DNA of 64,000 nt from Candidatus Eiseniibacteriota bacterium (lineage in GTDB: Bacteria; Orphanbacterota; Orphanbacteria; Orphanbacterales; Orphanbacteraceae). Location: the NCBI GenBank assembly GCA_024276995.1, contig JAJRWB010000009.1, positions 14,020-78,019 on the forward strand, in the 5' to 3' direction. Positions 24,525-45,201 of the stretch are shown here, piece after piece. Both the position numbers and the translations under genes were made by a program. Numbering within the stretch: position 1 is the first letter of the stretch; the number at the start of each line of letters is the position of its first letter. The notes below the pieces were generated by a model, which saw nothing but the letters and a program-made list of their open reading frames with translations, did not search any database and was not told where the DNA came from.

Positions 24525-24531
24525 GGCGACG

Positions 24532-24560
24532 ACCTTACCCGACCGTCCCCGGCGAGGCAA
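24532..24560 (-). promoter_or_regulatory. possible promoter giving a leaderless transcript
   Basis: On the minus strand TTGCCT (24555-24560), 17-nt spacer, TAAGGT (24532-24537). The predicted start (about 24525) coincides with the ATG of the membrane-protein gene. Confidence 0.4.
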
Positions 24561-24585
24561 GGCGGACGGCCCCGGCGGTCTTTCC

Positions 24586-24614
24586 TTGATCCGGCGGGGC
24601 CATTCCCTTATCCT
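24586..24614 (+). promoter_or_regulatory. sigma70-type promoter for the GAF/PAS regulator
   Basis: TTGATC (24586-24591), 17-nt spacer, TATCCT (24609-24614); predicted start about 24621, 28 nt before the start codon. Confidence 0.5.
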
Positions 24615-24648
24615 GAAAAGTGTCCCGCTTCTCCCAGGAGCCCGTCCC

Positions 24649-27108: not shown

Positions 27109-27617
27109 GCCGGAACGTCCACGGGTAGCAACATATTATGTAGATATCCCTATATGAATAGGGGTAGAATGATGAAGCACGGTTCATGGTTTTAAGGCTT
27201 TTGAAATAGACGGTTACGGTCGATTTCTCATGCAGATCCTTATGTGGATTCCTACAGTAGATGTAGATTTTTCCGGCGGCATCTGTGCACGAGGTTCATA
27301 GCCGATTCCAGGGGTGTAAGTTCCTGCTATTCCAAGAGATAGATTGGGGGTCCGGGAGGCGCTCTGGCACGGTACTTGTTAGTAAAACGGGGTACAACAA
27401 CAGGATTTTGCAGGATTGTCCCCTGCTAGCGCTCGTGTTCACGCAACATCATGAGCCAAATCGATGATAGGGATTCCATAGACTACCCTGGGTTTCCAAG
27501 TCGCGTGCACGGTATCCTGCGGGGGACATTTTTCAAGGGGGCCGGTGCTTGCGTTCCGGTCCCCTTCCGCTGAACATCCCTTTCCAAGGGCCTCACGATT
27601 CGTTACGATCTCTTCCC
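27109..27617 (+). other. A/T-richer gene-free gap
   Basis: About 500 nt visibly poorer in G+C than both flanks. It contains a short hairpin CCCTAT-ATGA-ATAGGG (27148-27163) and repeated GTAGAT words, but no convincing gene. The longest frame (27285-27467, 60 codons) has no ribosome site or family resemblance. It could be a relic of inserted DNA or an extended regulatory region. Confidence 0.5.
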
Positions 27618-28535
27618 ATGAACGTCGTCGTGCTGATCAATCCGAAAGCGGGCATGCCGGGAGACCGGAAGCGTCTCGGTGAGCGGGTGGCGGGGGCCTT
27701 TCCCGGTAGCGAAGTACGGGTGCTCACGCCCGGGAGCCGGTCCGCCATGGTCGCCCGGGCGGGCGCGGCGGTGGAGCGGGGTGTGGAGATGGTGGTGGTC
27801 GCCGGCGGTGACGGAACGATTCACGACGTCGCCTCGGTGGTCGCCGGATCGGACACGGTTCTCGGAATCGTCCCCCGCGGTTCGGGAAACGGTTTTGCCC
27901 GGGGACTCGGTATCGGCCCGTCGCTCCGGCAGGCGATCGGCGTGCTCCGGTCGGGCCACGATGTGAGGCTCGATACGGGCGTGGTGAACGACGAACCCTT
28001 CTTCTCCGTCTCCGGTCTCGGTTTCGACGCCCTTGTGGGGGAATCGTTCACCCGCAGCCGTCTGCGGGGCTTTCTCCCCTACCTCAGCATCGCGGCCCGG
28101 GAGTCGCTCCAGTACAAGCCGATCGAGGTGAACATCGTCTTTGATGACCGGGAGATCGTGGCGAAGGTATTCCTCGTCACGGTGGCCAACACGAGCCAGT
28201 TCGGTTCGGGCGCGATCATCGCCCCGGGGGCGGACCCCACCGACGGTCGGCTCGATGTGGTGGTGATCCGAAGCCTGACCGCACTCGAGATGCTCCTGCA
28301 CACGCCAAAGCTGTTCGACGGGTCGATCGGTACGTACTCCCGCGTGGAGATCTACCGGTGCCGCTCGGTGTGCATCCTCAGAGCCCATTGCGGCCCACTT
28401 CATGTCGATGGCGAGCCGATCGACTCGGGACCGTCGCTTCGCTACGGCGTGCGTCCCGGCGCGTTGCGCGTCCGCCTGCCGGCCGGGTTCGACCCCGCCG
28501 CGGAGGCGGCGAGGCAACGATCGTCCTCCTCCTGA
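27618..28535 (+). CDS. diacylglycerol kinase family lipid kinase (YegS/DgkB-like)
   Basis: 305 aa. The N-terminal catalytic domain has the NPKAG start (VVVLINPKAGMPGDRKRL) and nucleotide-binding GGDGT in VVVAGGDGTIHDVASVV. It is followed by the GSGNGFARGLGI segment and a beta-sandwich C-terminal domain with VSGLGFDALVGE. Such enzymes phosphorylate diacylglycerol, sphingoid bases or related lipids; the substrate cannot be read from sequence. ATG 27618 fits the family N-terminus. It converges on the ClpB-like gene. Confidence 0.88.
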   Translation: MNVVVLINPKAGMPGDRKRLGERVAGAFPGSEVRVLTPGSRSAMVARAGAAVERGVEMVVVAGGDGTIHDVASVVAGSDTVLGIVPRGSGNGFARGLGIGPSLRQAIGVLRSGHDVRLDTGVVNDEPFFSVSGLGFDALVGESFTRSRLRGFLPYLSIAARESLQYKPIEVNIVFDDREIVAKVFLVTVANTSQFGSGAIIAPGADPTDGRLDVVVIRSLTALEMLLHTPKLFDGSIGTYSRVEIYRCRSVCILRAHCGPLHVDGEPIDSGPSLRYGVRPGALRVRLPAGFDPAAEAARQRSSSS

Positions 28536-30403: not shown

Positions 30404-30447
30404 GACAAATTCCCGCTAATGATCTCGACAAATACACCGATCTTCTG

Positions 30448-30476
30448 AGGGTAGGCGGAGCGCGCAGTGGTGTCAA
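30448..30476 (-). promoter_or_regulatory. sigma70-type promoter for the ClpB-like gene
   Basis: Minus strand: perfect TTGACA (30471-30476), 17-nt spacer, TACCCT (30448-30453); predicted start about 30441, leader about 38 nt. Confidence 0.6.
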
Positions 30477-30728
30477 CGCAATACCTCGGGTGCTCCTTTT
30501 CCGGGCATCTGGGCAGATCTGCGCCACCCGGCCGCAGGGGCGCGACGACCGTCGTGTTCAACTTCGGTACACCGGTCGAACGGGGAACAGGCGCAAAGGG
30601 AAGGGTGGTATGCCTTTCCCCCGCCGGCGGGATGGAGGAGTGGTCATGGCACACCGATTGCCCCGGCTTCCCGTGGAGGGGGGAAATCTCTCTCCCCTCG
30701 GGGGCCGATCTTTTCGGGGAGTACGGGA
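30477..30728 (+). other. intergenic region between divergent genes
   Basis: With 30404-30476 this forms a 325-nt gap. It has several G+C hairpins (for example GAGGGG/CCCCTC within 30675-30702) ahead of the lipoprotein gene, but I found no convincing plus-strand promoter. No gene is seen. Confidence 0.4.
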
Positions 30729-32495
30729 ATGAAGGGTCGAATCCGCCGCGTCATCACCGTCGCCGCCGTTCTCGCGCCGGCGCTGCTCGCATCGTGCGCG
30801 TCCGATGTTCTCGTGCGGCGGCAGAGCGATCCTCTTGACCAGCCGGTGGAGAACGTGGCGGTTCTCCTCTTCTTCCAGGAGGCGGAGGGTGCCCCCGAGG
30901 GGCTCGACGAGCTCGCCACCGATGCCTTCACCGTGCAGGTGCAGAAATACTTTCCCGCGCTGGTGAGCCGGTACGAAGTGCGCGATTTCCTCCGGCGGAA
31001 CCGCTACACCCATGCCCTCTCTCCGGCGGTTCTGCGCGAGCTGGGCGAACAGCTTGGCGTCGACGGGCTCTTCGTCGGAAAGATCACCGGGTACAGCGAG
31101 AAGGAGAGCTTTCTCGGCTGGAACGGCAAGCCGCACTTCGAAATGGCGTGCCGTCTCCTTTCGACGAAAACGGGACGGGTTCTTCTCGCCGGCCAAGTGA
31201 ACGTCGAGGGTAGCTACGTGATTCCGGTGAACTCCCGCGCGGATAGGGTTGTTTTTGGCGTAAAACTTTTGACGAAGAAGATGGGCCTCTCCGAGCGGTT
31301 CGGCCTGAGGTACGTCACCCGCGACGATCCGATCTGGGCGCGGGCGATGCGTCACTACGAGAAGAAACAGTTCTGGGAGGCGGCGAGATACTTCGGGGCG
31401 ATCGTCCACGACTACGCACCGAGCGATCTTCGCGACGAGGCGCAGTTCTACATGGGCCGCTCTCTCGACGAACTCTCCCTCGCCTCGGCGGCGTTGGAAA
31501 TATACCGGTCGATCGAGAAAGGACCCTTCGCGGTACGCGCCCTGCTTCAGAGGATGGAGATCGCCTTCCGGGAGGAACGGGACGCCGATCTTCTCGCCCT
31601 CGATCGTCGGATGAACGGCCAGTGGGCCGATCGATCCGAGAGCGAGGCGGCCCGCTATCTCGCGGGACTCTCGCTCCTGCGAACGGGCCGGGCCGACGAG
31701 GCGATCGCCCGTCTCGCCTCGGTGGGCGAAACGAGCCGGTGGTACCCATTCGCCCGGTGGTCTCTCGCCGACCCGCTCCTGGCGAAGGGGGACAGCGCCT
31801 GGGCGCGGCGGTCGCTCGAAGCGGTGGCCGCCATCAAGGGGGTCACCGAGTCGGAAAGACGTCTCCGGGAGAGGGCGTTCGTCACTCTGGGCGACTATCA
31901 CTACGCCAGGGGCGACCGCGCCGAGGCGGAACGATGGTATGGCCTCGTGCGGGGGGAGTTCCTTCCCCGGGCGGCGCTCGGCTTGGCGTGGATCGCGGCG
32001 GAACGGGGCGATTACGAGGAGGCGATCGCCCATGCCGACGCCATGGGCGACGACGCCGATCCCCGCTGGGTCGGCGAGGCGCAACTCCTGGCGGGGACGT
32101 GCGAAGCGCGTCTCGCTCGGTTCGACCGTTCGGCGAAACGCCTCGAAACGGCGCTCGAGAAGTGTGAGCGATGGAAGGCGAGCGATGACGAGCAGGAGGC
32201 GGCAAGGCTCCGTGTCGCGTTGGCGCGACGTCGGATCGGCGTGGAGATCGGACCTATCGAAAGCGAGGTGATCGCCCTTCTCACGGGCGAACGGACGGAG
32301 GAGGAAGTCACCCGGCTCGACGAGCTGCACGACCGTTACGTCGAGATCGCCCGTCCCCTCGAGTCGCTCGAGCACCTCGCCGGCGCGGGACTCGACAGGG
32401 CGGAAGCGGAGAATCTGCGTGGTCGGATCCGGGAGAAGGCGGAGTTCTCCCTCGTCCAGGTACGATACGAACAAGAGAGGATGGAGGAAAAATGA
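30729..32495 (+). CDS. lipoprotein with CsgG-like N-terminus and TPR repeats
   Basis: 588 aa with a lipoprotein signal peptide (lipobox LLASC, lipidated Cys about residue 23). Residues about 40-160 resemble the alpha/beta fold of CsgG/GNA1162-type proteins (NVAVLLFFQEAEG; LGEQLGVDGLFVGKITGYSE). The rest is tandem TPR-like helices (about 200-480; for example ERAFVTLGDYHYARGDRAEA). Probably on the outer or inner membrane facing the periplasm as an assembly scaffold. First gene of an eight-gene coupled operon ending with a TonB-like protein; overlaps the next gene by 4 nt. Specific function unknown. Confidence 0.75.
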   Translation: MKGRIRRVITVAAVLAPALLASCASDVLVRRQSDPLDQPVENVAVLLFFQEAEGAPEGLDELATDAFTVQVQKYFPALVSRYEVRDFLRRNRYTHALSPAVLRELGEQLGVDGLFVGKITGYSEKESFLGWNGKPHFEMACRLLSTKTGRVLLAGQVNVEGSYVIPVNSRADRVVFGVKLLTKKMGLSERFGLRYVTRDDPIWARAMRHYEKKQFWEAARYFGAIVHDYAPSDLRDEAQFYMGRSLDELSLASAALEIYRSIEKGPFAVRALLQRMEIAFREERDADLLALDRRMNGQWADRSESEAARYLAGLSLLRTGRADEAIARLASVGETSRWYPFARWSLADPLLAKGDSAWARRSLEAVAAIKGVTESERRLRERAFVTLGDYHYARGDRAEAERWYGLVRGEFLPRAALGLAWIAAERGDYEEAIAHADAMGDDADPRWVGEAQLLAGTCEARLARFDRSAKRLETALEKCERWKASDDEQEAARLRVALARRRIGVEIGPIESEVIALLTGERTEEEVTRLDELHDRYVEIARPLESLEHLAGAGLDRAEAENLRGRIREKAEFSLVQVRYEQERMEEK

Positions 32496-33043
32496 TCGGC
32501 ACCTCGACTTCGACGACCGGCGGCGGGTCTTCCCTGACGCTTCATACGCGAAATGCCGCCTTCTCCGTCGTGGTGATCGCGCTCTTTGCGGCGGCGCCCC
32601 GATTTTCCCCCGCGGCGGCGAGGGAGCCGTACATTCCCGACACGCTGATCTTCGCCGACTCGAGCGAACGGGAGGGGAGGATCGTCTCGATCGACGGCGC
32701 CGACATCCAGTTTCAGGAGGATCCGAGGGGAAGGACGAAGTTGATCCCTCTCGCCGAGGTGAGAAGGATCGTGTGGGCCTCGGGGGGCGAGTCGCTTCAT
32801 CCGGTGGTTCAAGATCCCCTCTCGGGCGAGATCCCCGGTTTCCGCAGGGCGCGATCCTCGGCCCGTTTCCGGAGGGACGATCTCGAACTGAGCAGGGGGG
32901 AGGTGGCGTACAACGCCTTCGGCCGCGGGGTGATGGTCGGGGCGGTGGCGACGTTCTTCACCTCCGACGGGGACGAGAAGAAAGTCGCCTTCGCCGCGGG
33001 ATTTCTCCTGCAGTTCGGGATTTCATTTTTCGCGGGGTGGTAG
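32492..33043 (+). CDS. secreted protein of unknown function
   Basis: 183 aa with a hydrophobic segment at about 21-38 (signal peptide with long N-region). A small beta-rich domain follows (DTLIFADSSEREGRIVSIDG, KLIPLAEVRRIVW) resembling the short Sm-like segments of secreted proteins that modulate a surface, and a glycine-rich hydrophobic C-terminus (GVMVGAVATFF; FAAGFLLQFGISFFAGW) suggests membrane association. I do not recognise a family. Start overlaps the upstream lipoprotein stop (ATGA), so co-translation is likely. Confidence 0.65.
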   Translation: MIGTSTSTTGGGSSLTLHTRNAAFSVVVIALFAAAPRFSPAAAREPYIPDTLIFADSSEREGRIVSIDGADIQFQEDPRGRTKLIPLAEVRRIVWASGGESLHPVVQDPLSGEIPGFRRARSSARFRRDDLELSRGEVAYNAFGRGVMVGAVATFFTSDGDEKKVAFAAGFLLQFGISFFAGW

Positions 33044-33056
33044 GGAAGTGCCGATC

Positions 33057-33653
33057 ATGAGCAGGAGAATCGATTCTCATATAAATCGGATCGTTTCGTC
33101 GATCGTGGCGCCGGCCGTCATGATCATACTATCCGGCTGTACCGGGTCGACCGGCCATGTGCCCTTGCATGTCGATTCGCCCGGCGGTTTCGGCGTCCTT
33201 CCCTTCGAGGACCGTAGCGGGAGCACCGACGCGACGCTCGGCTCCCAGGTGGCGCACCAGTTCGCGTCCCGCCTCGCCGCCGGCGCGTTCGATGTCATCG
33301 ATCCGCGCCAGATCGATGCGCTCTTCGCCGAGGCGGGAATGGAGCTTCCCGATCGATTCGATGCGCGGGCACGCGAGATGATCCGAACCGTGACCGGGTG
33401 CGACATGGTCGTCACCGGGGTGATCACCGACGTGGTTCCGGGGGACGGTTTCAACGCTCCGAAGGCGGTGATCTCGATCCGACTCGTCGATCTCGAGAGT
33501 GGGTATACCGTCTACTCCCTCGGCAGGTCGTATCCCGGCGGAGTGGGAAACCGACTCGGCGGCGATACCGACCGGCTCGTTCTCGACTGCGCCGATTACC
33601 TGGCGGACCGGATGAGTCTCGACGTGGCGCGCCGGGAGGGGTCGGACGAATGA
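33057..33653 (+). CDS. small CsgG/GNA1162-like lipoprotein
   Basis: 198 aa, lipobox LSGC with the lipidated Cys near residue 28. The mature part matches the periplasmic alpha/beta domain seen in CsgG, TolB-N-like and GNA1162 proteins: FGVLPFEDRSGS, then QVAHQFASRLAAGAFDVIDP, CDMVVTGVITDVV and ISIRLVDLESGYTVYS. ATG 33057 has AGGGA about 9 nt upstream; a GTG at 33048 is too close to it. The stop overlaps the TPR gene by 4 nt. Likely an outer-membrane-anchored component of the same machine. Confidence 0.72.
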   Translation: MSRRIDSHINRIVSSIVAPAVMIILSGCTGSTGHVPLHVDSPGGFGVLPFEDRSGSTDATLGSQVAHQFASRLAAGAFDVIDPRQIDALFAEAGMELPDRFDARAREMIRTVTGCDMVVTGVITDVVPGDGFNAPKAVISIRLVDLESGYTVYSLGRSYPGGVGNRLGGDTDRLVLDCADYLADRMSLDVARREGSDE

Positions 33654-36600
33654 CGGGAATCCTATCCGCGGCGCTCCTCCTGGCGGCGGCGTGCTTCGCC
33701 GGGCCGGTGCGGGCTTCGAATGATTCGGGCGGGTTCGAAGACGAGTCGATTCGCCGCTTCGAAGCGCTCCTGGAGCGATATCCCCGGAGCGAAATGCGCG
33801 CCCCCGTTCTCGTGCTTCTCGGAAATCTCTATATGGAAACGGAAAAGGAGCGATACCTCTCCGGGGTGGTTCGCTACGAGGACGGCGAAAGCGACGTGGA
33901 GCCGGTTCTCGACTACTCAAAGGCGATCGGCGCCTTCCGCGAGGTGATTCGCGACTATCCCGCGTATGCCGGGAGGGCCGAGGCGATATTCGCGCTGGCG
34001 GTCTGCCTTGAGGAGTCGGGCGACGAGTCGGGCGCGGTGGATGCCTATCGGCAGGTGATCGAGGCGGTCCCGGCAAAGAGCCCGGTCGGCGGTGAGGCGG
34101 CCATGCGCGTTGCCGACATCGAGTTTCTCCACGAACGATGGGGAAGCGCGCTCGAAGCGTACGAGCGGGCCGTGGCCCTCGGTGTGGACGCCGAATCGGG
34201 AAAGCTCGACTACAAGATCGGCTGGTGTCACCTCAAGCGGAATGAACTGACGGAGGCGCGCGAGCGGTTCCAGGCATGCGCGGACCGGACATGGGCCGCC
34301 GATGCCCGCGGCGCCGGGCGGGAGGACCTGACCGAATTGCTCCGGTCGCTCGCCCTCGTTCAGGCGGAAACCGATCCCGCCGGAATCGATCGGTACGCCT
34401 CCCGTTTCGAGGACCGCCTCTATCGCCGGGCGGCGCTCGTGGAACTGGGGGAAGTCCTCCTCGATCAGGATCGGCCCGTCGAGGCGGAAGAGGCGTTCCG
34501 TTCGGCTCTTGGTATCGACGGTACGGCCGACGACGCGCCCGAGCTGCGCGACAGGGTGATCGAGTGCCTCGTGTCGCGCGACGAGAAGGAGGCGGCCGGC
34601 CGAGAGATGGAGCGTTTCTGCGCGTTGTTCGGACCGGGGAGCGAATGGCGGCTTTCGAGACGACTCGACGCCGACCGTTCCACCGCGCTGGCGCAGAGGC
34701 TGCGGCGAAACGCGTGGAACGGCGCCCTTCTCCGGTACCGGACGGGCGGCGAAAAGGACTGGCCGGTGGCGGCGGCGCTTTTCGAGTCGTACATCGACGA
34801 GCTGGGCGGCGACGTGCAACTGGAGCGGGCGAGACTTTTCGCCGCCGAATCGTGGTACAGAAGCGGCCGGTTCGACAGGAGTGCGGACGACTACGACGCC
34901 ATCGACCCGGCGGGGCTCGAAACCGATGAAGAGAGAACGATGGCGCTGCGCGGCTCGTTTCTCGCCCATCGAGACGGCGGAGCGGGGGGGGGATCTCGCC
35001 GCCGCGGCGCTGCGCTGGTTCGACGACCGCCCCGGCGACGACGAGAGTCGCAAGGCGGTTCTCCTGGCGGCGGAACGGCTCGAGTCGGAGGGCGATCTCG
35101 ACAGGGCGCTCGACCTCTGTTTCCGTGTCGGACAGTCGGAGGGGGGAACACTCCGGGGCGAGGCGGCGGTGCGCGCCGGAAAAATCGCTTCAGCAATGAA
35201 GGACTATTCCGCCGCCGAGGAGTGGTTCCTCCGGGCGGCGGACGCGACCGGCGATCCGGCGGAGCGAAAGGGGAGAATCGAACGGGCCGCCGCCGGATCG
35301 TTCCTGCATGCCCGGGAGGCGGAGGAACGCGAATCGTGGGACGAAGCGGCCGACCGTTATGCGAGGACCGCTTCGGAGTACGATTCGACATCCGTCGCTG
35401 TCGATGCGATCCGCGCCGAGCTTCGCTGCCGGACGGCGGGCGACGACGCGGAGAGGGCGATCGCCGTCGCCGCCGCGCTTTCCGCGCGGACGGCGGGCGA
35501 CACCCTTTCCGCCGATGCGGTCCGGTTCGCCGCCGCCCGGTTCGCCGAGAGGGGAAATCACGGGGAGGCGGGCGATCTTCTTCAGATCGCCTTTTCGATC
35601 GCCCAGCGTCCCGCCGATCTCCTCGCCGGTGCCGCCGAGTACGAAGCGGCCGGCGCCGTCCCCGAGGCGGACGGTCTTCTCACCGAGCTGACGGAGCGCT
35701 TCGCCCGCCATGAGGCGGCGGCGGAAGGGGCGTTCCGTCTCGCCATGATCCGGTTGAAGCAGGAGCGTTACGATGAGGCGGCCTCCTGGTTCGACCGTTC
35801 CCTAGCCTCCGGCGCTTCACCCGGCGTCTCGGCCGCACAGGTCCGTTTTCACGAGGGAGAAGCCCGCCTCGCCGCCGGTGATTCGGCCGCCGCCGCCGCC
35901 GTATTCCACAAGGCGGCCGCCGCCGGGGAAGGCGCGACCGGCCGAGCGGAGTGGTATGCCGCGCGCGCCCACTTCGCCGCGGCGGCGATCGCCCGCGGCG
36001 CCCTCGACCGCGCGATTGCCGCGTGGCGCCGTGGCGAGAGGCGTGAAGGTCCGGCCGATCTACTCGCGTCCTACGTCGAGGATCTCCGGAAGGGAATCGC
36101 GGCGCGCTTCGAGAACATCACCACCGGGCCGATGATCGAACTCGCCGGCGCGCTCGAGCTGTACGGCCGAACCGCCCACCTTCGCGAGTGGGAGAGGGGA
36201 AACATCCCTTCGGCCGGCCTCGTGGAGCCCTACTTCTCCGACGCCGCGGCACTTTACGCGTCGGCCGGGGCGACGGGCCGACCGGGCGCGAATCCGTACG
36301 CTTCCCTCGCCGACACGCTGGTCCGCTTCGGCGAGGAGGAATTGGAGCGCAACGCGCCGCCCGCCGCCGCCGACATCGACACATCCGTCGCCGGGTGGTT
36401 CGACGCCCACTCCGACGCGCTTTCACGCCGGCTGCTCGCCACCGAAAGAGCCGACGCGCTGTGGAGCACCGCCATGGAGCTGTACGAAATGCAAGAGAGC
36501 GGACCGGCCGTGACGGAGTGGAACGGCCGCGCCGGTGTTTCGGTCGCCCTTCGCGGGGCGGAAGCGAATCACGCCGCCGCGGCGCTCCTTCGCGAGGCCC

Positions 36601-36797
36601 CCCTTCCTCCGTCGGCGAGCGAGGAGGAACGGCGGCTGTACGGCGACCTTCTCCGGGAGAAGGCGGCGTCGTACGAAGAGCGCGCCGCCGCCTGGATAGA
36701 AAAAATCGAGGAGGCGACCGCCGGTGATGCCGTCCGGTCTCTCTCGCAGCGTCTTCTTTCCGTGGAGAACGGGAACGGCGAAGGAAGGGAACGATGA
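33650..36797 (+). CDS. large periplasmic TPR protein split by a frameshift at a G9 tract
   Basis: Signal peptide at the N-terminus, then TPR-type helical repeats throughout (IFALAVCLEESGDESGAVDA; RALDLCFRVGQSEGGTLRGE; GAFRLAMIRLKQERYDEAAS). As written, the first frame runs from 33650 but loses repeat character after the run of nine G at 34984-34992, reaching a stop at 35713. The TPR pattern resumes at the same point one frame away and continues to 36797. Removing one G joins them into about 1,048 residues. This is either a sequence error, a recent mutation or a slippage-controlled switch. Overlaps neighbours by 4 nt at both ends. Confidence 0.8.
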
Positions 36798-37072
36798 AAA
36801 GAATATCGGTTCTTCTTCTTCTCCTCGTCGTCGCGGCGGCCGGCGCCGCGGCCGGTGAGAAGCCGAAGAGGCAGATCGTGAATCTGAAGAAGATGAACAT
36901 CGAGGGGACCGTACCCGATCCCGCTACGATGTTTATACGTGAAAGACAACCGGGCGGTCTGCTCGAACTGTTTCCCTTGAAAAGAGAACTCCGGGAGGAG
37001 TGGCTTCTCCCGGTGATCAAGGGAAACTTCGATCGGGCGACCGTGGAACTCGTGGACGGAAGGAAGAGGTGA
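36794..37072 (+). CDS. small secreted protein of the TolQ/ExbD operon
   Basis: 92 aa with a clear signal peptide (residues 1-21, ending AAAG). The mature 70 residues are basic and contain KRQIVNLKKMNIEGTVPDPA and FIRERQPGGLLELFPLKREL. No cysteine or known motif. Gene coupling (4-nt overlap upstream, 4-nt gap to the TolQ-like gene) suggests a dedicated periplasmic linker. Similar small proteins accompany Exb/Tol clusters in gliding and TonB-type systems, but no family can be named with certainty. Confidence 0.65.
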   Translation: MKRISVLLLLLVVAAAGAAAGEKPKRQIVNLKKMNIEGTVPDPATMFIRERQPGGLLELFPLKRELREEWLLPVIKGNFDRATVELVDGRKR

Positions 37073-37076
37073 GGTC

Positions 37077-38042
37077 ATGACCAGGAATAGGCTGAATCGA
37101 TCGATCCCGCCGGTGGCGCTCTTGATACTGGCGCTCACGGCGATCTGCCCCCCGCCCACCGCCGCCCAGGCGGCGGACGACAACGGGGTCGCCCCGGGCG
37201 CGGCGAACGCAGCGGCCGTCGAATCGGGGCCTGTGGCCGGCGGCGTGTCCCCTTTCGCCGTGGTGGAGGCAGTTCCCGCTAAGGGCGCCGTGGCGATCAT
37301 GCCGTGGGATAGGCTTCTCCGGTTCGCCGCCGGCGCCTTCTCCGGGGCGGGCGCGCCCTTCATGTGGGCGATTCTGATGGTCAGCGCCTTCGCGACCACC
37401 GTGGGACTCGAAAAGATCCATTTCCTCACGGTCCGTACCGGACGGGGGGGGGGCGAGCGTTTCTTCGACGAGGTGTGCCGTCTCGTCCGGGACAGGAGGA
37501 TCGAAGAGGCGCGCAGCCTAGCCGCCGGCAGCGACACGCCGTTCGGCAGGATGGTGAACCGGATCCTCGGCATCCGGCACGGTCACAGGCGCGACGAGAT
37601 GCAAAGCCGCCTCGATGAGGCGTACTTGAAGGAGATTCCCGCGTATCACAGGAGACTTCCTCTCCTGGCGGTGTGCGCGAATCTCGCCACCCTTCTCGGT
37701 CTCCTCGGAACGATCGCCGGGCTGATCATCGCTTTCGAGGCGGTGGCGACCGTGGCGGCGGCGCAGCGGACCGCCGCCTTGGCAGGGGGAATCTCCGTTG
37801 CGATGGCCACCACCGGATTCGGCCTTCTCGTGGCGATTCCGACGCTCGCCCTCCACGGCATTCTCGGCGCGCGCGCCGACCGGGCGGTGGAGGAGATCGA
37901 GGCGAAGCTCGCGTCGCTCACCTCCCTGATGGAGGAGTGGAACCGGAAACTCCAGATCGATCCGTACGAGGGAGAGGAACGGAGAGGCCGCGGCGCGGAA
38001 GAGAAGATCGCCGAGTTCGCCACGGCGGGAGACGCCCAATGA
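37077..38042 (+). CDS. MotA/TolQ/ExbB-family proton channel subunit
   Basis: 321 aa. An N-terminal signal-like helix and an Ala/Gly-rich periplasmic stretch (about 1-80) precede the first channel helix (about 98-116). The conserved TolQ/ExbB core follows (LPLLAVCANLATLLGLLGTI, then ALAGGISVAMATTGFGLLVA), with the third helix containing Thr at the ion path. A G10 tract (37444-37453) remains in frame. Encoded immediately before two ExbD-like genes, with which it should form the 5:2 motor complex. Confidence 0.88.
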   Translation: MTRNRLNRSIPPVALLILALTAICPPPTAAQAADDNGVAPGAANAAAVESGPVAGGVSPFAVVEAVPAKGAVAIMPWDRLLRFAAGAFSGAGAPFMWAILMVSAFATTVGLEKIHFLTVRTGRGGGERFFDEVCRLVRDRRIEEARSLAAGSDTPFGRMVNRILGIRHGHRRDEMQSRLDEAYLKEIPAYHRRLPLLAVCANLATLLGLLGTIAGLIIAFEAVATVAAAQRTAALAGGISVAMATTGFGLLVAIPTLALHGILGARADRAVEEIEAKLASLTSLMEEWNRKLQIDPYEGEERRGRGAEEKIAEFATAGDAQ

Positions 38043-38536
38043 GACCGGGACGTTCTTCGACGTCGCGGCGCGGGATCGAGGGAAACGACCTCGACATGGT
38101 GCCCATGATGAACCTGTTCACCGTGCTCGTCCCCATTCTTCTCCTGGCGGCGGTCTTCGCCCGGGTGAGCGTTCTCGACCTCGCCCTTCCCCCGAAGGGA
38201 AGCGGCGAAACGGGCCGAAGCGTCCACGAGGAGAAATCGCCGCTCAACCTGGTGGTGGTGGTGTCCCGCGAGGGGATCACCGTGGGCGGAACGGGCGGTT
38301 TTCTTCCCTCGGTGACCGACCGGGACGAGAAACTCCGGTTCGACGCATTCGCGCTCCTTCTCGACAGGGTGCGCGGCGAATACCCGGATGAGAGCAGCGT
38401 CACCGTCGCCTCCGACGGCGGCGTAGCATACGAGGATGTTTTGAAAGTGATGGACATCTGCAGGGATCGCGGGTTCCGCGAGATCGCGTTGAGCGCTCTT
38501 CACGACGTCCGGTCGTCCGGCGGGGGGGAGGGATGA
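38039..38536 (+). CDS. ExbD/TolR-family protein, first copy
   Basis: 165 aa; one transmembrane helix after DLDMVPMMNLFTVLVPILL (about 17-40). The aspartate before the helix, DMVPMMN, matches the ExbD proton-path Asp region. The periplasmic domain (about 65-150) has the TolR fold pattern: VVVVSREGITVGG, then VTVASDGGVAYEDVLKVMD. Start overlaps the TolQ-like stop (ATGA). Confidence 0.85.
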   Translation: MRPGRSSTSRRGIEGNDLDMVPMMNLFTVLVPILLLAAVFARVSVLDLALPPKGSGETGRSVHEEKSPLNLVVVVSREGITVGGTGGFLPSVTDRDEKLRFDAFALLLDRVRGEYPDESSVTVASDGGVAYEDVLKVMDICRDRGFREIALSALHDVRSSGGGEG

Positions 38537-38537
38537 G

Positions 38538-39014
38538 ATGAAACCGACCCGACCGAGAAGAAGGGGGCGGAGTGGCGGCGCCGTCCTCACAGTGACTTCC
38601 CTTGTGGATATTCTTTCCATACTGCTCATATTCCTGCTCCTCTCGTTCTCACCGGAAGGGGCTCTTCTCCAGGCGGCGCAGGATCTCGAGCTTCCCGAAA
38701 CGACGTCGCGTGAAAGCGTCGATCGAAGCGATCGCGTCATCGCCGTCACCGGCCGCGCGATCACTGTGGGGGAGAAGGTGGCGGCCCGTCTCGACGGCTG
38801 GGATGGCTCCGTGCCGATCGCCGGTCTCGCCGCACTGCTCGGCGATGTCTCCTCGACGCCCGAGGCCGACCGGCGGGTGCTGATCGAAGGAGACCGGCGG
38901 ATACCGTTCGACCTTCTCTACGCCGTTCTTTTCACCAGCCACCAGGCGGGCTACAGGAACCTCGCTCTAGCGGCGTACGAACGGCCGGCGGGGGAGGAAG
39001 GAGGCGCACCATGA
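38538..39014 (+). CDS. ExbD/TolR-family protein, second copy
   Basis: 158 aa; basic N-terminus, then LTVTSLVDILSILLIFLLLS (17-36), with the conserved Asp (LVDIL) entering the single transmembrane helix. The periplasmic domain is a divergent TolR fold (RVLIEGDRRIPFDLLYAVLF). Two ExbD paralogues per TolQ occur in gliding and other specialised motors. One nt after the first copy; overlaps the next gene by 4 nt. Confidence 0.83.
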   Translation: MKPTRPRRRGRSGGAVLTVTSLVDILSILLIFLLLSFSPEGALLQAAQDLELPETTSRESVDRSDRVIAVTGRAITVGEKVAARLDGWDGSVPIAGLAALLGDVSSTPEADRRVLIEGDRRIPFDLLYAVLFTSHQAGYRNLALAAYERPAGEEGGAP

Positions 39015-39958
39015 AGAGCGCAAACGGGCCGGGAGAGACATCGATTCTCCGAAGAGTCGCCGCCGCGTCGATCGGCGCTCACCTCCTCTTCGGCCTCGGT
39101 ATCGCCACGGTCGAACTCCAACCCCTGGTCACCCCCGGTGTCTGGGCGGTGGAGGAAGCACCGCCGGTGGAGGTTATCCTCTCGATGGAAGCGCCCGTTT
39201 TCAGTAAGACGGCGCCTCCGCCGGTGCGCCAAGCATCTCCCGTTCCGGCGGGGATGAAGAAGGGGATGCGATCTGCGAAAGTCGAAGCGGGGAAGAAGTC
39301 GGGTGGGGGCGGGGGGGATCCCCTCCGGAGAGTAACCCGCCTCGGCGTTCTCGGCCGGCTCGCGACCGCCTCTTCCGGAAGTCGCGTGACCGCCGAGCGG
39401 AAGGGGACGCTCTACGCAAGCGACGGCATGACGCAGCTCCTACGCGGCGTGGGGGAAACGCGCCGCGTGACCGGTCCCGCGTCGAAAGGAGAATCGGGCA
39501 TCGGCTTCGGTTCGGGTGTGGGGAGCGGTTTCGGTGGGGGCACGGCGAAACAGGAGGCGGAAGAACTGGTCGCCTCCCTCGGGGACGGCAGCGGCGAAAA
39601 GCTCGTGCTCGAGCGGCGCGAAGGGGTGATCGACGGTACCGGGTTCTCCTTCGAAGGAGCCGACGGTTGTCGGGATGAAACGGAGATCGCCCGGATCGTC
39701 CTGAGTCACAAGGGGGGGATTCGCGGCTGCTACAACAGGACCCTCAGGCGCACCCCGGGTGGGAAGGGAGAGATCGCCGTGCGCTTCCTCATTTCCACCG
39801 GGGGGGACGTGACCGGCGCGGAGGTGATCTCCAGCACCGTCGGCGATCCCGGTCTCGAGGAGTGCGTCCTCGAGAGGATCGGGAAGTGGACGTTCCCGGC
39901 CGAACCCGATTGCGAAACGGTTGTGCGCTACTCGTTCCATTTCACATCCGACCTGTAG
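39011..39958 (+). CDS. TonB/AgmX-type energy transducer
   Basis: 315 aa: transmembrane helix near 20-37 (IGAHLLFGLGIATVELQ), a Pro/Gly/Lys-rich periplasmic linker, then a C-terminal domain (about 220-312) with the AgmX/PglI pattern: IVLSHKGGIRGCYNRTLRR, EIAVRFLISTGGDVTGAEV, and LEECVLERIGKWTFPAE, including the two conserved cysteines. It would carry motor energy across the periplasm. Last gene of the operon. Confidence 0.82.
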   Translation: MKSANGPGETSILRRVAAASIGAHLLFGLGIATVELQPLVTPGVWAVEEAPPVEVILSMEAPVFSKTAPPPVRQASPVPAGMKKGMRSAKVEAGKKSGGGGGDPLRRVTRLGVLGRLATASSGSRVTAERKGTLYASDGMTQLLRGVGETRRVTGPASKGESGIGFGSGVGSGFGGGTAKQEAEELVASLGDGSGEKLVLERREGVIDGTGFSFEGADGCRDETEIARIVLSHKGGIRGCYNRTLRRTPGGKGEIAVRFLISTGGDVTGAEVISSTVGDPGLEECVLERIGKWTFPAEPDCETVVRYSFHFTSDL

Positions 39959-40068: not shown

Positions 40069-41646
40069 CTACGCCGGTCCGCTCCGATTCTTCCCGGTCA
40101 CGGGAAAGCGCATCAGAAAAGCGGCCCCCTTTCCGGGCTCGCTCTTCACATCGATCGATCCGCCGTGGGCTTCCACGATGCCGTGCGCGATGCTCAAGCC
40201 GAGCCCCGTTCCGCCGGTGTTCGTTTTCGTGGTGAAAAAGGGATCGAACAGCTTCTTGATTACGTCCGGCTCGATACCGGAGCCGTCGTCGGTTACGGTG
40301 ATGACGAGGTGATCGTCTTCCTGTTCGAGTCCCACCGCGACGTTCCCGCCCGGGCTGCACGCGTCGATCGAGTTCTGCAGCAGGTTGGTCACCGCCCGCT
40401 CGAGGCCGATCCCGTCGCCGTCGATGGAGGGGACCGGTCCGTTCACTTCGAGAGAGAGGGCGACGTCCTTCGCGGCGGCGCTCTCCCGGACGCTTCGCAG
40501 GGCGAGGCGAACGACCGGGTCGACGTCGAGCCGGCTTCTCACGGCGCCCGCACTATTCGAAAAGCGGAGAACACTCTGCACGATGCGCGTGCATCGGCTG
40601 CACTGCTCGATGATTTCTCCGAGCGCCGCCGTTCTCTTCTCGCGGCCGGCAGGGTCATCCTTCATCCGCAGCGCCGTCTGTGCGTACAGGAGGATCGCCC
40701 CGATCGGGTTGTTGATCTCGTGGGCGATTCCCGCGGCGAGCGTCCCGAGCGAGGCGAGCCGCTCGGCACGGTTCAGCTTCTCCTCCGACCGGAGGAGTGC
40801 GGATGTCCTCTCCCGCACCAGTTCCTCCAAGTGCGCCCTGTAGCTTTCCAATTCCGATTCCGCCTTCTTCCGCTGCGTGATGTTGCGGCAGTTGATCACC
40901 ATCCCCTCCACGCCCGGCGCGTCGGGCATGTGGACGAACAGTCCCTCGAGGAAGATGTAATGCCCCCGCCTGTGGCGCACGCGGAACGAGTCGAGACGGT
41001 TCGCCTTCCCCGGCTTCCCCCGGGTGGCGGCGAGGGAGCGGTTGACCTTGGCCAGATCGTCCGGGTGAACAAACGCCGCCGGTCTCCGCCCAAGTATTTC
41101 ATGTACGGCATAGCCGCCGATCCGCATGGCGGACGGACTGACGTAGCGGGCGACCCCGGAGGAATCGAGAATGAGCGTGATGTCGGTGGAGTTCTCCGTG
41201 ATGGCGCGGAATCTCTCCTCGCTTTCGCGAAGCGCCTCGAGAGCTTCGTTCTTCTGGCGAATCAACTCCCATTCGCGGAGCGCCGATTCCGCTGTGTAGG
41301 GCATGTGGATGAAGGTGGATTCCGACTTCACCACATAGTCGATGGCGCCCGCCTTGATCGCCTCCACCGCGACCTGCTCGTCACCGTGGCTCGTCATGAT
41401 CACCACCGGGATCGGCGGGGGAGCGGCGGTGTCTTCGAAAAGGTCGGTCCCCCGGCCGTCGGGGAGGACGAGATCGACGATCGCCATGTCCGGGAGTTCG
41501 GTGCCGAGCATGAAGCGCGCTTCCGCCAGTGTCGATGCCGTGCGGACGACGACCGGCATGCGCGCACCGTCGAAAGCCCGGCGGATCAGCCCCGCGTGGG
41601 CGCGGTCGTCCTCCACGAGGAGGATCGTCTTCTCGCCGGTGCTCAC
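40069..41646 (-). CDS. receiver-PAS-histidine kinase
   Basis: 525 aa soluble kinase: N-terminal receiver (about 5-125, phospho-acceptor Asp in AIVDLVLPDGRG), PAS (about 140-265), coiled coil, HisKA with the phospho-His in LAAGIAHEINNPIGAILLY and HATPase with NLLQNSIDAC, DDGSGIEPD and GGTGLGLSIAHGIVEAHGG. The HEINNP form is typical of PAS-linked kinases of NtrB-like type. Third gene of a phosphorelay operon; its start overlaps the single-domain regulator by 4 nt (ATGA). Confidence 0.88.
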   Translation of the reverse strand: MSTGEKTILLVEDDRAHAGLIRRAFDGARMPVVVRTASTLAEARFMLGTELPDMAIVDLVLPDGRGTDLFEDTAAPPPIPVVIMTSHGDEQVAVEAIKAGAIDYVVKSESTFIHMPYTAESALREWELIRQKNEALEALRESEERFRAITENSTDITLILDSSGVARYVSPSAMRIGGYAVHEILGRRPAAFVHPDDLAKVNRSLAATRGKPGKANRLDSFRVRHRRGHYIFLEGLFVHMPDAPGVEGMVINCRNITQRKKAESELESYRAHLEELVRERTSALLRSEEKLNRAERLASLGTLAAGIAHEINNPIGAILLYAQTALRMKDDPAGREKRTAALGEIIEQCSRCTRIVQSVLRFSNSAGAVRSRLDVDPVVRLALRSVRESAAAKDVALSLEVNGPVPSIDGDGIGLERAVTNLLQNSIDACSPGGNVAVGLEQEDDHLVITVTDDGSGIEPDVIKKLFDPFFTTKTNTGGTGLGLSIAHGIVEAHGGSIDVKSEPGKGAAFLMRFPVTGKNRSGPA

Positions 41647-42080
41647 AGCGTCTCCCCCTTCCGGTGCAACCGGATGCCGAGGCCGTCGAGGACCGCCGCC
41701 AGTCTCCCGATATCCACCGGCTTGACGAGGTAGCTGTCCGCCCGGCTCTGCGAGGCGCCGGCGAGATCGGACTCGGCGTCGGACGTGGTGAGGATCACGA
41801 CGGGGAGCGACGAGAGAGGCCCCGAGGCGCGAACCTTGGCGAGAACCTCGAGGCCGCCGATCTTCGGCAGGCGCAGATCGAGGAGGAGCGCATCGGGCGG
41901 CGGCGGCGGATCGTAGGTTTCGCCGAAAAGGATATCGAGCGCCTCCTCGCCGTCCCGGGCACGGCGGATCTGGGCGACCAAGCCTCTCCGCTCGAAACCG
42001 GCGAGCAGAAGGTTTGCGTGGGCGACGTTGTCCTCCACCAGGAGGATCCGCGGCGGCGCGCCGCTACCGTTTTCCTTCAT
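41643..42080 (-). CDS. single-domain response regulator
   Basis: 145 aa, only a receiver domain: acidic pair in ILLVEDNVAHANLLL, phospho-acceptor Asp in ALLLDLRLPKIGGLEV, Thr in VVILTTSDAESD and Lys in SYLVKPVDIGRL. The Rcp1-like spacing (LRLPKIGG) suggests partnership with phytochrome/PAS-type kinases. It overlaps the upstream sensor kinase by 17 nt and the next kinase by 4 nt, so it probably shuttles phosphate between them. Confidence 0.88.
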   Translation of the reverse strand: MKENGSGAPPRILLVEDNVAHANLLLAGFERRGLVAQIRRARDGEEALDILFGETYDPPPPPDALLLDLRLPKIGGLEVLAKVRASGPLSSLPVVILTTSDAESDLAGASQSRADSYLVKPVDIGRLAAVLDGLGIRLHRKGETL

Positions 42081-44211
42081 CGGGCAATTCCCTTCCGGGG
42101 AGGGCGAAGCAGAACGTCGAACCGTGTCCGGTGCCCTCCGATTCGACCCAGATCGTGCCGCCGTGGGCCTCGATGATCTTCTTCGTGAGGGCGAGGCCGA
42201 CGCCGGTTCCTCCGCGGGCGGGGTCGAGCTGCTCGAACAGGTCGAATATCTTTTCCCGGTATCGTGCCTCGATGCCGATGCCGTTGTCTTTCACGAAACA
42301 GACCGGCCCGTCGTCGCCCGCTCTCGCTCCGATGGTCACCACCCGTTCCGCCCCGAAGGCCGAAAACCGTATCGCGTTATCCACGAGATTCTGCAGCACT
42401 TCGAACATTCTCGTCTTGTCACAGCGGAATCGGGGGAGCGCCGGCTCGATGCGCAGCGAGACGCGCTCCTCGTGCAACCTCCCCTCGAGAAGACGGGCCA
42501 CATCGGAAGCGAGTCCGCCGAAGTCGACGTCCTCCTCCGGGTTGACCGTTCTGCCGATTCGGGAGAGTTCGAGCAGTTCGTCGAGGAGCCTCTTCATCCT
42601 TCCGGCGGCGCCGGCGATGAAATCGATGTCGGCGGCCACCTTTCCCCGGTCGTCCGACTCGATGTCCCGGGCGAGAAGATCGATATATCCTCTGATCGTG
42701 ATGAGCGGACTTTTCAGATCGTGGGAGACGGTGTAGGTGAACCGTTCCAGCTCCGCGTTCTTCGTTTCCAGTTCGGTGATGAGCGCCTCGCGCTCTTTCT
42801 CGATGTTTTTTCGATCGGTCACGTCGAAGGAGATTCCCGACATGCCGGTCACGTTCTCCCCCTCGTCGCGGATCGGTATGTAACTGCTGTCCCATACCCG
42901 ACCGGCCACCTCGGAGTCGCCCGACACTTCCTCTCCCCGAAGCGCACGCTTCACCATCTCGATCGTATCGTGATGCTCGCCGAAGAGATCCCAGATCGAA
43001 CGTCCCACGATCTCTCCCGGTTTGAGTCCAAAGTGTTTGAGGCCGTCTCCCTCGGAGAGGGTGAACACGCCGTCCCGGTCGAGAGCCCACAGGATCACGG
43101 GCGCTCTTTCGATCACCGACCGGAGGCGGCCTCGAATCTCTTCGAGTTTCCTTTCCGTTTCCTTTCGGTTCGTAATATCGCGGAACACTACCTGGACGGC
43201 CGGCCTCCCCTCGATTTCGATCGGAATGCCGGCCACCTCCACGTCGATAATCCGCCCGTCGGTGCGGACGAACTTCTCCTCGAGCAGGGGGGCCGGTTCG
43301 TTGGCGTCGTAGATCGCGTTCACCCGCTTGGCGACCACGTCCCTATAGGAGGGATGGAGGAAGCTCAGCGATGGGAGTCCGATCAGCTCGTCCGGATCGT
43401 TCGCGCCGATCAACCGTGCCGCCTCCCGGTTGGCGAAGACGATCTTCCCCGCGCTGTGGGCGATAATGCCGAGAGGAGAAGTCTCGACGAGAATGCCGTA
43501 TCGTCTGTCGATCTCCCCTCGCGCCCTCTCGAGTCTCTCTCTCTCCCGGACCCCTCTCGCGAACCGTCCGGCGCCGGCGAAAATACCGAGGAGCCCGACG
43601 AGACCGACGGCGGCGTGACTGACGTAAAACGAACGAATATGCCGGCGCACCAGGGCGCGGATCGGCGCGACGGGAACGCGGACCTCGAGCCCTCCGACGA
43701 CGGTGCCGGTTTCACCTGCGGCGGCGTGGCACCGCGCACATTTCGGAGAGCCCCGGACGGCGCCGGCGCAGATCACTTCCTCCTTTTCCCCGATACCGGA
43801 GAAACGACACACCGTTCCGCCGTTCGAACCCTCCGACTTGTTCACCGCCCGGAGGGCGCCGGGTGGGAGCTCCTCCGTTGGGAGGAGGCGTCCCGTCGCG
43901 CCTTCGCTCGCCAGCACGGCCGCAATGTGGGAGATCGGAAGGGTAGTGTCCTCTCTCCCTCCGGCGCGGATCACCAGGGCGGACCGTTTCGTTTCGAACC
44001 GGCGGCGCGCCTGCAGAACGGCGAAGTCGTGCACCTCCTTGCTCTGCTGGCGGATGTTCCAAACCAGGGAGAGGAGGACCACCGAGATCCAGCCGGCGGC
44101 GAGGAGCGAGGCATAGCGACGCACCCGGACCATGGCCGCCGCCGGCCGGAGTGGACCGGCTGCTTCGTTCTTCGCCCGCGGGGGCGCCCCGTTTTCTCTC
44201 GTTTCGGTCAA
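42064..44211 (-). CDS. membrane sensor histidine kinase with periplasmic CxxCH haem motif and two PAS domains
   Basis: 715 aa. Two transmembrane helices (about 33-52 and 195-215) flank a periplasmic domain containing CARCH (158-162), a c-type haem-binding motif, in a DUF3365/Tll0287-like context. PAS1 spans about 235-355 and PAS2 about 360-480. HisKA has FTYTVSHDLKSPLITIRGY and HATPase has NLVDNAIRFS, KDNGIGIEARY and GGTGVGLALTKKIIEAHGG. TTG 44211 is preferred: an AGGGAGAGG motif lies 6 nt upstream, whereas in-frame ATG 44133 has no SD. It heads an operon with the regulator and second kinase, so a redox or gas signal is plausible. Confidence 0.85.
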   Translation of the reverse strand: MTETRENGAPPRAKNEAAGPLRPAAAMVRVRRYASLLAAGWISVVLLSLVWNIRQQSKEVHDFAVLQARRRFETKRSALVIRAGGREDTTLPISHIAAVLASEGATGRLLPTEELPPGALRAVNKSEGSNGGTVCRFSGIGEKEEVICAGAVRGSPKCARCHAAAGETGTVVGGLEVRVPVAPIRALVRRHIRSFYVSHAAVGLVGLLGIFAGAGRFARGVRERERLERARGEIDRRYGILVETSPLGIIAHSAGKIVFANREAARLIGANDPDELIGLPSLSFLHPSYRDVVAKRVNAIYDANEPAPLLEEKFVRTDGRIIDVEVAGIPIEIEGRPAVQVVFRDITNRKETERKLEEIRGRLRSVIERAPVILWALDRDGVFTLSEGDGLKHFGLKPGEIVGRSIWDLFGEHHDTIEMVKRALRGEEVSGDSEVAGRVWDSSYIPIRDEGENVTGMSGISFDVTDRKNIEKEREALITELETKNAELERFTYTVSHDLKSPLITIRGYIDLLARDIESDDRGKVAADIDFIAGAAGRMKRLLDELLELSRIGRTVNPEEDVDFGGLASDVARLLEGRLHEERVSLRIEPALPRFRCDKTRMFEVLQNLVDNAIRFSAFGAERVVTIGARAGDDGPVCFVKDNGIGIEARYREKIFDLFEQLDPARGGTGVGLALTKKIIEAHGGTIWVESEGTGHGSTFCFALPGRELPDEGKR

Positions 44212-44259
44212 GGGCGGCCTCTCCCTCCGATTCGGAATGCCTCGGGAAGTGCCTCGTCT

Positions 44260-44288
44260 AAAATACCCGTCCCGCCGTGCGGTGTCAA
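44260..44288 (-). promoter_or_regulatory. sigma70-type promoter for the phosphorelay operon
   Basis: Minus strand: perfect TTGACA (44283-44288), 17-nt spacer, TATTTT (44260-44265); predicted start about 44253. Confidence 0.65.
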
Positions 44289-44363
44289 AGCGGCCCTTCG
44301 GCGCCGCCCGCTCCCAGCCCGCTGCGCATCGAACCACTTCCCCTCCCGGCGGGTCATCGCGGT

Positions 44364-44392
44364 TGCCACGGGGAATCCATACCATTATAATG
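44364..44392 (+). promoter_or_regulatory. sigma70-type promoter for the metallo-hydrolase gene
   Basis: TTGCCA (44364-44369), 17-nt spacer, perfect TATAAT (44387-44392); predicted start about 44399, leader about 40 nt. Confidence 0.65.
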
Positions 44393-44439
44393 GGCCCGCA
44401 CGAAGCGCTCTGCGGGCGCCGGCGAAGGAGGATATGCAA

Positions 44440-45093
44440 ATGAAGGTTACGTACCTGGGGCACTCCGCCGTTCTCCTCGAGGGAAGCCGGACGATCTATA
44501 TCGATCCGTTTCTCACCGGGAACGACAGGGCGTGCCTGTCGGTAGACGACGTGAACAAGGCCGATTTCGTCGCCGTCACCCACGATCATGACGATCATCT
44601 CGGCGACGCCTTCGAGATCTGCCGGAGAACGGGCGCGACCCTCGTGTCGATCTTCGAGATCACCTGCCGGGGAGAGGGGGAGGGACTCGCCGTCGAGCCG
44701 ATGAGCATCGGTGGAAGCATCGAGACGGAGGGGGTTCGTTTCAGCTTGGTCAACGCGGTGCACTCCTCGCCCGGATCCGACCCCACGGGGGTGATTGTCG
44801 AAATGGACGGTAAGACGGTCTATCACATGGGCGACACCGCACTCACGTCGGATATGGCGCTCCTGCCCGACTTCTTCCGGATCGATCTCGCCCTCGTCCC
44901 GGTGGGAGACCGGTTCACCATGGGGGGGGCGTCGGCCGCGCGCGCCGTGAAGATGTGCGGCGCGAAGATCGCCGTGCCGATCCATTACGGTACCTTCCCG
45001 ATCATCGATGCGACGCCCGACCGGTTCGTCGAGGCGGCGAAAGACGTGGCCGAGATCCGCGTCCTTGATCCGGGGGAATCGACCGAGTTGTAG
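44440..45093 (+). CDS. metal-dependent hydrolase, UPF0173/metallo-beta-lactamase fold
   Basis: 217 aa, metallo-beta-lactamase fold: GHSAVLLEGSRTIYIDPFLT at the N-terminus, metal motif THDHDDHLGDA (HxHxDH), then NAVHSS, YHMGDTALTSDMALL and a final His in IPIHYGTFP. This matches the UPF0173 group of compact hydrolases, substrate unknown. AAGGAGG at 44425-44431 puts the start at ATG 44440 rather than ATG 44434. Confidence 0.88.
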   Translation: MKVTYLGHSAVLLEGSRTIYIDPFLTGNDRACLSVDDVNKADFVAVTHDHDDHLGDAFEICRRTGATLVSIFEITCRGEGEGLAVEPMSIGGSIETEGVRFSLVNAVHSSPGSDPTGVIVEMDGKTVYHMGDTALTSDMALLPDFFRIDLALVPVGDRFTMGGASAARAVKMCGAKIAVPIHYGTFPIIDATPDRFVEAAKDVAEIRVLDPGESTEL

Positions 45094-45201
45094 GGACCGA
45101 TCGCCGGGGGGCGAGTGGCCCGTTTTCGGAAAATAGGGGATAGTCGCAGGTGCCACAGCTCCTGGCCTCCCACGGTGAGGATATGACCGGAGGTGCCCGC
45201 G

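Follow-up and report, generated by a model that had tools for sequence, protein, structure and literature searches.

A conserved nine-gene operon with an Agl-Glt/Nfs-type core, CsgG-like lipoproteins and a divergent degenerate Clp gene in an uncultured bacterial lineage

The G1 cluster of Myxococcus xanthus encodes the tetratricopeptide repeat (TPR) protein GltD (1191 aa), GltE (471 aa), GltF (89 aa, with a signal peptide) and GltG (640 aa), and the associated motor is encoded by aglRQS (PMC3169522). NfsA-H are encoded in one locus homologous to GltA-H, and the Agl-Nfs machine moves polymer around the spore surface (PMC3858216). The core of these machines alone is insufficient for gliding in Myxococcus, and its function outside the myxobacteria was termed unknown (PMC3169522). 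Here, a 64,000 nt stretch of DNA (hereafter the window) of a Candidatus Eiseniibacteriota bacterium (assembly GCA_024276995.1, contig JAJRWB010000009.1, positions 14,020 to 78,019 of the forward strand) was analyzed. It harbors nine genes (g1-g9) on the + strand at 30729-39958, whose neighbors overlap by a few bases or nearly touch, and a divergently oriented gene for a Clp-like protein (pseudo-Clp). A preliminary description of this DNA had reported the genes as coupled and had named its protein families, all of which was found as described; its count of eight genes has to be raised to nine, the number that its own list names.

Judged from their sequences, g4, g5, g6-g8 and g9 are the counterparts of GltD, GltF, AglR/Q/S and GltG in the Agl-Glt/Nfs machines of Myxococcus. 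At the locus an AglR/TolQ-type subunit is followed by two different ExbD/TolR subunits, and g6 as well as g7 and g8 are homologous to solved TolQ and ExbD structures. The C-terminal domain of g9 matched NF033768 with 83.6 bits (cut-off 40; 8.1e-24). The match of g9 to the GltG model (4.1e-17, 62 bits) stayed under the equivalog cut-off of 650, and g9 carries S-x3-H, the motor-contact motif. TPRs were assigned to both g1 and g4 in domain scans. The g4 profile matched the 1218-aa protein at the GltD position of genome G034 at 3.3e-24, a TPR likeness that is partly generic, and the g1 profile matched a TPR open reading frame (ORF) preceding GltD in the same genome at 3.1e-12. The TPR half of g1 further matched the GltC model NF033756 at 1.7e-5, far under its cut-off. 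No family was matched by g2 or g5 in domain scans. Nevertheless, g5 is regarded as GltF-like because a g5 relative occupies the gap between GltE and GltG in a bona fide myxobacterial genome (GltG 1033 bits, GltE 772 bits, both over cut-off). This relative is small and secreted and shows the pattern IDF...IEG.L.KP, and a second g5-type copy of that genome sits in a C-D-E-F-G-like cluster.

Conservation within the family was analyzed in the window's genome (G000) and six relatives (G001-G006). The lineage is uncultured and known from metagenome-assembled genomes (MAGs), and three of the relatives are public MAGs: JALGYY01, JAJCZU01 (named Ca. Eisenbacteria) and JABDJQ01 (named Gemmatimonadetes). 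Every other genome compared shares only the domain, so that the lineage stands isolated within the genome set. The pseudo-Clp gene and g1-g9 are all present in identical order in G001, G004 and G005, with the Clp gene and the end of g9 being cut by the contig in G005. In G003 the set is split over two contig ends and lacks g3, and in G006 the contig ends after g1; five of the six relatives thus keep g1-g9, or whatever their contigs cover, together with the divergent Clp-like gene. In G002, g1-g5, g8 and g9 have been lost. The Clp-like gene of this genome is still oriented away from ExbB, which is accompanied by a degenerate ExbD, and the UPF0173 hydrolase and transglutaminase genes found downstream in G001 and the window are present here too. 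Because gene order and strand are kept in the relatives at roughly 30-74% protein identity, the gene set is more than a chance arrangement. The preliminary description had named the co-occurrence of the lipoproteins and the TPR gene with the motor genes as the point on which its proposal could fail. This co-occurrence holds in the relatives covering the locus, except G002, and the proposed energized trans-envelope machine with its own lipoproteins is supported by the conservation of the gene set in the family.

A profile search with g7 recovered relatives in 145 of 386 genomes, of which 20 neighborhoods were fetched. These revealed the same row across many families: a giant TPR protein, a small secreted protein, ExbB, an Asn-type ExbD, an Asp-type ExbD and an AgmX-type transducer. 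At least 15 families besides the window's have clusters of this kind, and TPR lipoproteins encoded there gave matches to the models for GltE (8.7e-27, 1.3e-20) and GltC (1.5e-9, 1.2e-8). The core is already described: the motor, the two ExbDs, the giant TPR protein, the small secreted protein and the AgmX transducer, which had been thought possibly undescribed, constitute the known Agl-Glt/Nfs core (PMC3169522, PMC3858216). The CsgG-type parts, g2 and pseudo-Clp are lineage-specific additions to this core. In addition to the operon, a second Glt-like cluster of more canonical make-up is present in G004 and G001 (L106, L107), with GltD-, GltE- and GltF-like genes and an Asn/Asp ExbD pair.

The operon probably encodes a proton-motive-force-driven trans-envelope machine with a core of the Agl-Glt/Nfs type, which would pull via g9 on an outer-membrane lipoprotein/TPR complex and have a surface polymer or adhesin as its cargo. 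Matches of tolQ/tolR models to g6-g8 and of ybgF/CpoB to g1 and g4, as well as the weak likeness of g3 to LpoB and FlgO, might also be explained by a lineage-specific Tol-Pal/CpoB-type system, in which the motor stabilizes the outer membrane or controls peptidoglycan synthesis, g3/g1 are LpoB-like activators and the TPR protein is CpoB-like. However, no Pal, TolB or TolA-type gene was found in the operon, the C-terminal domain of g9 is of the AgmX/GltG type (8.1e-24) and not of the TolA type, the GltF-like g5 and the giant TPR protein fit the Glt order, and the ExbD is paired, which makes a Tol-Pal-type system quite unlikely. The homology to Agl-Glt further raises the question of a gliding motility machine proper. 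This is very improbable, as GltE is absent at the locus, no GltH/I/J/K-type set was seen there, and the core does not suffice for gliding in Myxococcus (PMC3169522). Because none of the GltE matches listed lies on the contig, the locus is not classed as the gliding machine in the strict M. xanthus sense. Zorya defense was rejected since the ZorA2 match to g6 was only weak, and a type IX secretion system (T9SS)/GldLM was rejected since no GldL/M-type gene was present.

The ExbD residue at the proton-binding site was read by profile alignment. The proton-binding Asp of ExbD, TolR and AglQ is replaced by Asn in g7 and is present in g8. In the 25 top loci outside the family (L064-L088), the position of the g7 Asn is occupied by Asn in 17, Asp in 6 and Ser in 2, and the partner ExbD has Asp wherever it was recovered beside an Asn or Ser form. 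Asn at this site is therefore not only tolerated but also conserved across a large class of such motors. Myxobacterial-type AglQ/AglS-like pairs (L164-L166) are Asp/Asp, and both AglQ and AglS of M. xanthus have Asp according to a review (PMC9389320). The substitution D28N in AglQ abolishes proton conductance and function in M. xanthus and is paralyzing (PMC3858216). In the tree, the window's family formed its own clade (100/100), which was not sister to the second, more canonical Glt-like cluster of G004/G001. No literature on an Asp-less ExbD partner was found, most subscription journals lying outside the coverage of the search. It is possible, though doubtful, that these systems represent a distinct class of 5:2-type proton motors, in which the axle is obligately heterodimeric and holds only one proton-binding Asp, the subunit at the AglQ position naturally having the Asn that paralyzes AglQ of Myxococcus. 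In this lineage, the motor would in addition be coupled to a catalytically dead, nucleotide-binding Clp ring as a cytosolic clutch or anchor. Both the missing Asp of g7 and the sigma-54 promoter presented below were absent from the preliminary description.

Particular to the lineage are a putative CsgG-type domain on g1, the proteins g3 and g2, the lack of GltE and the catalytically degenerate Clp paralogue. Comparison of g3 with three CsgG sequences by hhalign yielded a probability of 95.9 (E 5.5e-9), and weak matches to GNA1162, PelC, FlgO and LpoB were obtained in addition. Because g3 stayed under the Pfam cut-offs, it is assigned to CsgG at superfamily level only. The N-terminal domain of g1 matched g3 by profile (probability 86, E 4.9e-6), and via g3 this domain may be assigned to the same superfamily as CsgG-like. 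In the g1 model, a confident TPR superhelix at about 193-587 follows a less certain alpha/beta domain (about 40-190). A single-sequence g1 scan of the named genomes found nothing. The g2 protein is confined to the family (4 of the 386 genomes and one marginal match). In its model, an Sm/Hfq-like beta domain (block predicted local distance difference test score 82-85; Foldseek E about 0.006) is combined with a helical hairpin at the C-terminus, and the g2 profile gave chance matches only against PDB sequences; the Sm/Hfq-like fold is suggestive only. A secretion or assembly device would fit the CsgG superfamily membership of g3, its weak PelC and GNA1162 matches and the fact that T9SS SprE is one of the TPR proteins matched structurally by g1. 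In such a device, CsgG-type lipoproteins would assemble into a ring or pore in the outer membrane, with the motor energizing the export of a secreted polymer or protein in a curli- or Pel-like manner. Yet the operon contains no CsgA/B/E/F-like or polysaccharide synthase gene, and the matches stop at the superfamily level, the cut-off for the pore-forming CsgG family (PF03783) not being reached, so that an export device is unlikely.

The divergent gene had been noted before as a dead ClpB, and it proved to be real. Pseudo-Clp keeps both Walker A lysines, whereas the N-domain and M-domain are missing. In six of six family sequences the Walker B Asp of D1 is replaced by Asn and the catalytic Glu of D2 by Gly, leaving both Walker B sites degenerate, and substitutions are also found in the pore loop and the Arg finger of D2. 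On its residues, pseudo-Clp would be a pseudo-ATPase and not an ordinary disaggregase. It scored 340 bits against the ClpB equivalog (cut-off 1232). Elsewhere, the genome encodes a canonical ClpB that reaches 1335 bits, along with another full-length Clp protein. The gene is syntenic beside the motor or operon in seven of seven family genomes, including G002. A random neighbor was rejected as an explanation, since the gene is kept beside ExbB-ExbD in G002 after the other losses. The dead Clp lineage extends beyond motor loci, yet it always accompanies the motor in the window's family. Catalytic motifs are degenerate also in the homologues outside this family (L149 9869-11743, L151 9899-11767). 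Literature on a motor-linked dead Clp was not found, with most subscription journals again outside coverage.

The reading frame of g4 opens at 33650, reaches a run of nine G at 34984-34992 and resumes in a different frame to 36797. This run, which the relatives lack, corresponds to a one-base frameshift, and four relatives have g4 as an unbroken ORF of 1055-1065 aa. The giant TPR gene of the preliminary description is thus present, but in the window it is not one unbroken reading frame. Because the relatives carry a single ORF, the break is treated as an assembly error or a recent strain mutation, and genuine gene fission was rejected on the same grounds.

In the proposed trans-envelope machine, a g6 pentamer would enclose a g7-g8 heterodimer, and protons passing the single Asp (g8) would turn this rotor or axle. 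Bound at the motor edge, g9 would pull through the periplasm on the TPR scaffold, and this pull would move or open an outer-membrane assembly of g1 and g3 that handles surface cargo. The dead Clp paralogue may form a nucleotide-binding ring in the cytosol and act on the motor as a regulator or scaffold. Several points speak against a machine of this kind. The cargo, by analogy with Agl-Nfs most likely a polysaccharide or adhesin, is a guess. Among the matches listed, none to GltE lies on the window's contig, and the operon contains no outer-membrane protein gene. The TPR likenesses (g1 to GltC, g4 to GltD) rest partly on generic repeats and gene order. The N-terminal domain of g1 gave no direct hhalign match to CsgG and, like g3, did not reach the PF03783 threshold; in the structure lists of g1 (Foldseek, VIA-align), TPR proteins fill the rows and no CsgG match for this domain appears. 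Finally, the only other close relatives of pseudo-Clp, found in two genomes of one other family, lie beside a CvpA-like gene without an adjacent motor.

Upstream of g1, each of the six operon-holding genomes has a near-consensus sigma-54 site with invariant GG-N10-GC as its best match on the forward strand (shuffle P 0.002-0.07 per genome). It is located 65-86 nt upstream of g1 where the g1 start is clear, the distance in G006 being counted from a later start, and it is absent in G002. A regulator gene with GAF-PAS-sigma54 activator-Fis helix-turn-helix architecture lies upstream at 24508-27108, and its orthologue is found near the reduced G002 locus (L057 14488-16938). We infer that sigma-54 acts together with a bacterial enhancer-binding protein to induce expression of the operon. 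The only other one-mismatch sigma-54 match in the window is a second near-consensus site, TGGCACGGTACTTGTT, at 27365-27380 upstream of a YegS-type lipid kinase gene (27549-28535). Downstream of g9, sensor kinase and response-regulator genes on the - strand (40069-45156) separate the operon from the UPF0173 hydrolase gene, which in G001 lies directly 3' of g9. The features of the locus are listed in Table 1.

Table 1. Coordinates of the operon, the divergent Clp-like gene and associated features in the window.
Feature	Position	Strand	Basis or remark
Divergent Clp-like double-AAA+ protein, 606 aa	28583..30403	-	Domain scans and alignment
Divergent intergenic promoter region between Clp-like gene and g1	30404..30728	.	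316-335 bp in five g1-bearing relatives
Putative sigma-54 -24/-12 site TGGCACACCGATTGCC	30647..30662	+	66 nt upstream of g1 start
g1: lipoprotein, N-terminal CsgG-superfamily-like domain and GltC-like TPR superhelix	30729..32495	+	Domain scans, model, profile comparison
g2: secreted/membrane protein, predicted Sm(Hfq)-like beta domain and C-terminal helical hairpin	32492..33043	+	Model; family-restricted
g3: lipoprotein of the CsgG/GNA1162/FlgO/LpoB superfamily, GTG start	33048..33653	+	hhalign
g4: giant periplasmic TPR protein, GltD-like, about 1050 aa, frameshifted in window	33650..36797	+	
g4 frameshift site, G9 run	34984..34992	+	Single ORF in relatives
g5: small secreted protein, 92 aa, GltF-like	36794..37072	+	
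g6: TolQ/ExbB/AglR-type proton-channel subunit with N-terminal periplasmic extension	37077..38042	+	MotA_ExbB 4.7e-25
g7: ExbD/TolR subunit, AglQ position, Asn for proton-binding Asp (PMMN)	38039..38536	+	ExbD 1.3e-17
g8: ExbD/TolR subunit, AglS position, Asp kept (SLVD)	38538..39014	+	ExbD 7.2e-12
g9: TonB-like transducer, transmembrane segment with S-x3-H motif, AgmX/PglI (GltG/GltJ) C-terminal domain	39011..39958	+	

With this locus, the family of Myxococcus gliding and spore-coat machines is extended to an uncultured lineage that has outer-membrane parts of its own. GltF-like proteins are indicated as part of the wide core, whereas gltF had been placed among the later additions (PMC3169522). 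The recurrent Asn/Asp ExbD pair represents a natural experiment on the two proton sites of 5:2 rotary motors; should a single site be enough, models with alternating use of the two Asp residues would have to be revised. Control of a proton motor through a conserved dead Clp protein would, if true, be unusual.

Compared with known systems, pseudo-Clp shares two AAA+ modules in Clp order, the D2-small domain and the Walker A lysines with ClpB/ClpA/ClpC, but it lacks the N- and M-domains, catalytic residues, pore loops and Arg fingers of these proteins, and the true ClpB is a separate gene. With Tol-Pal the locus has in common a TolQ/TolR-type motor, a periplasm-spanning transducer and a TPR partner, and it differs in lacking Pal, TolB and TolA, in having two different ExbDs and in the AgmX-type end of its transducer. 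The core-like clusters of other families (L089-L107) exhibit the same row of giant TPR protein, small secreted protein, ExbB, Asn-type and Asp-type ExbD and AgmX-type transducer, whereas they have GltE/GltC-type TPR lipoproteins and no g2, g3 or pseudo-Clp in the fetched flanks. As in standalone core systems, the motor genes are located within the cluster. The likeness to Myxococcus Agl-Glt/Agl-Nfs comprises a TolQ-like AglR with two ExbD-like subunits, a GltG-type TonB-like transducer, a GltD-sized secreted TPR protein followed by a secreted protein of approximately 90 aa (GltF), and a TPR protein weakly resembling GltC. In contrast to Agl-Glt of M. xanthus, which has Asp in both ExbD-type subunits, the subunit at the AglQ position carries Asn here; GltE and the FHA domain of GltG are missing, g1 bears a putative CsgG-like domain, and the window adds g2, g3, pseudo-Clp and the sigma-54 site upstream of g1.

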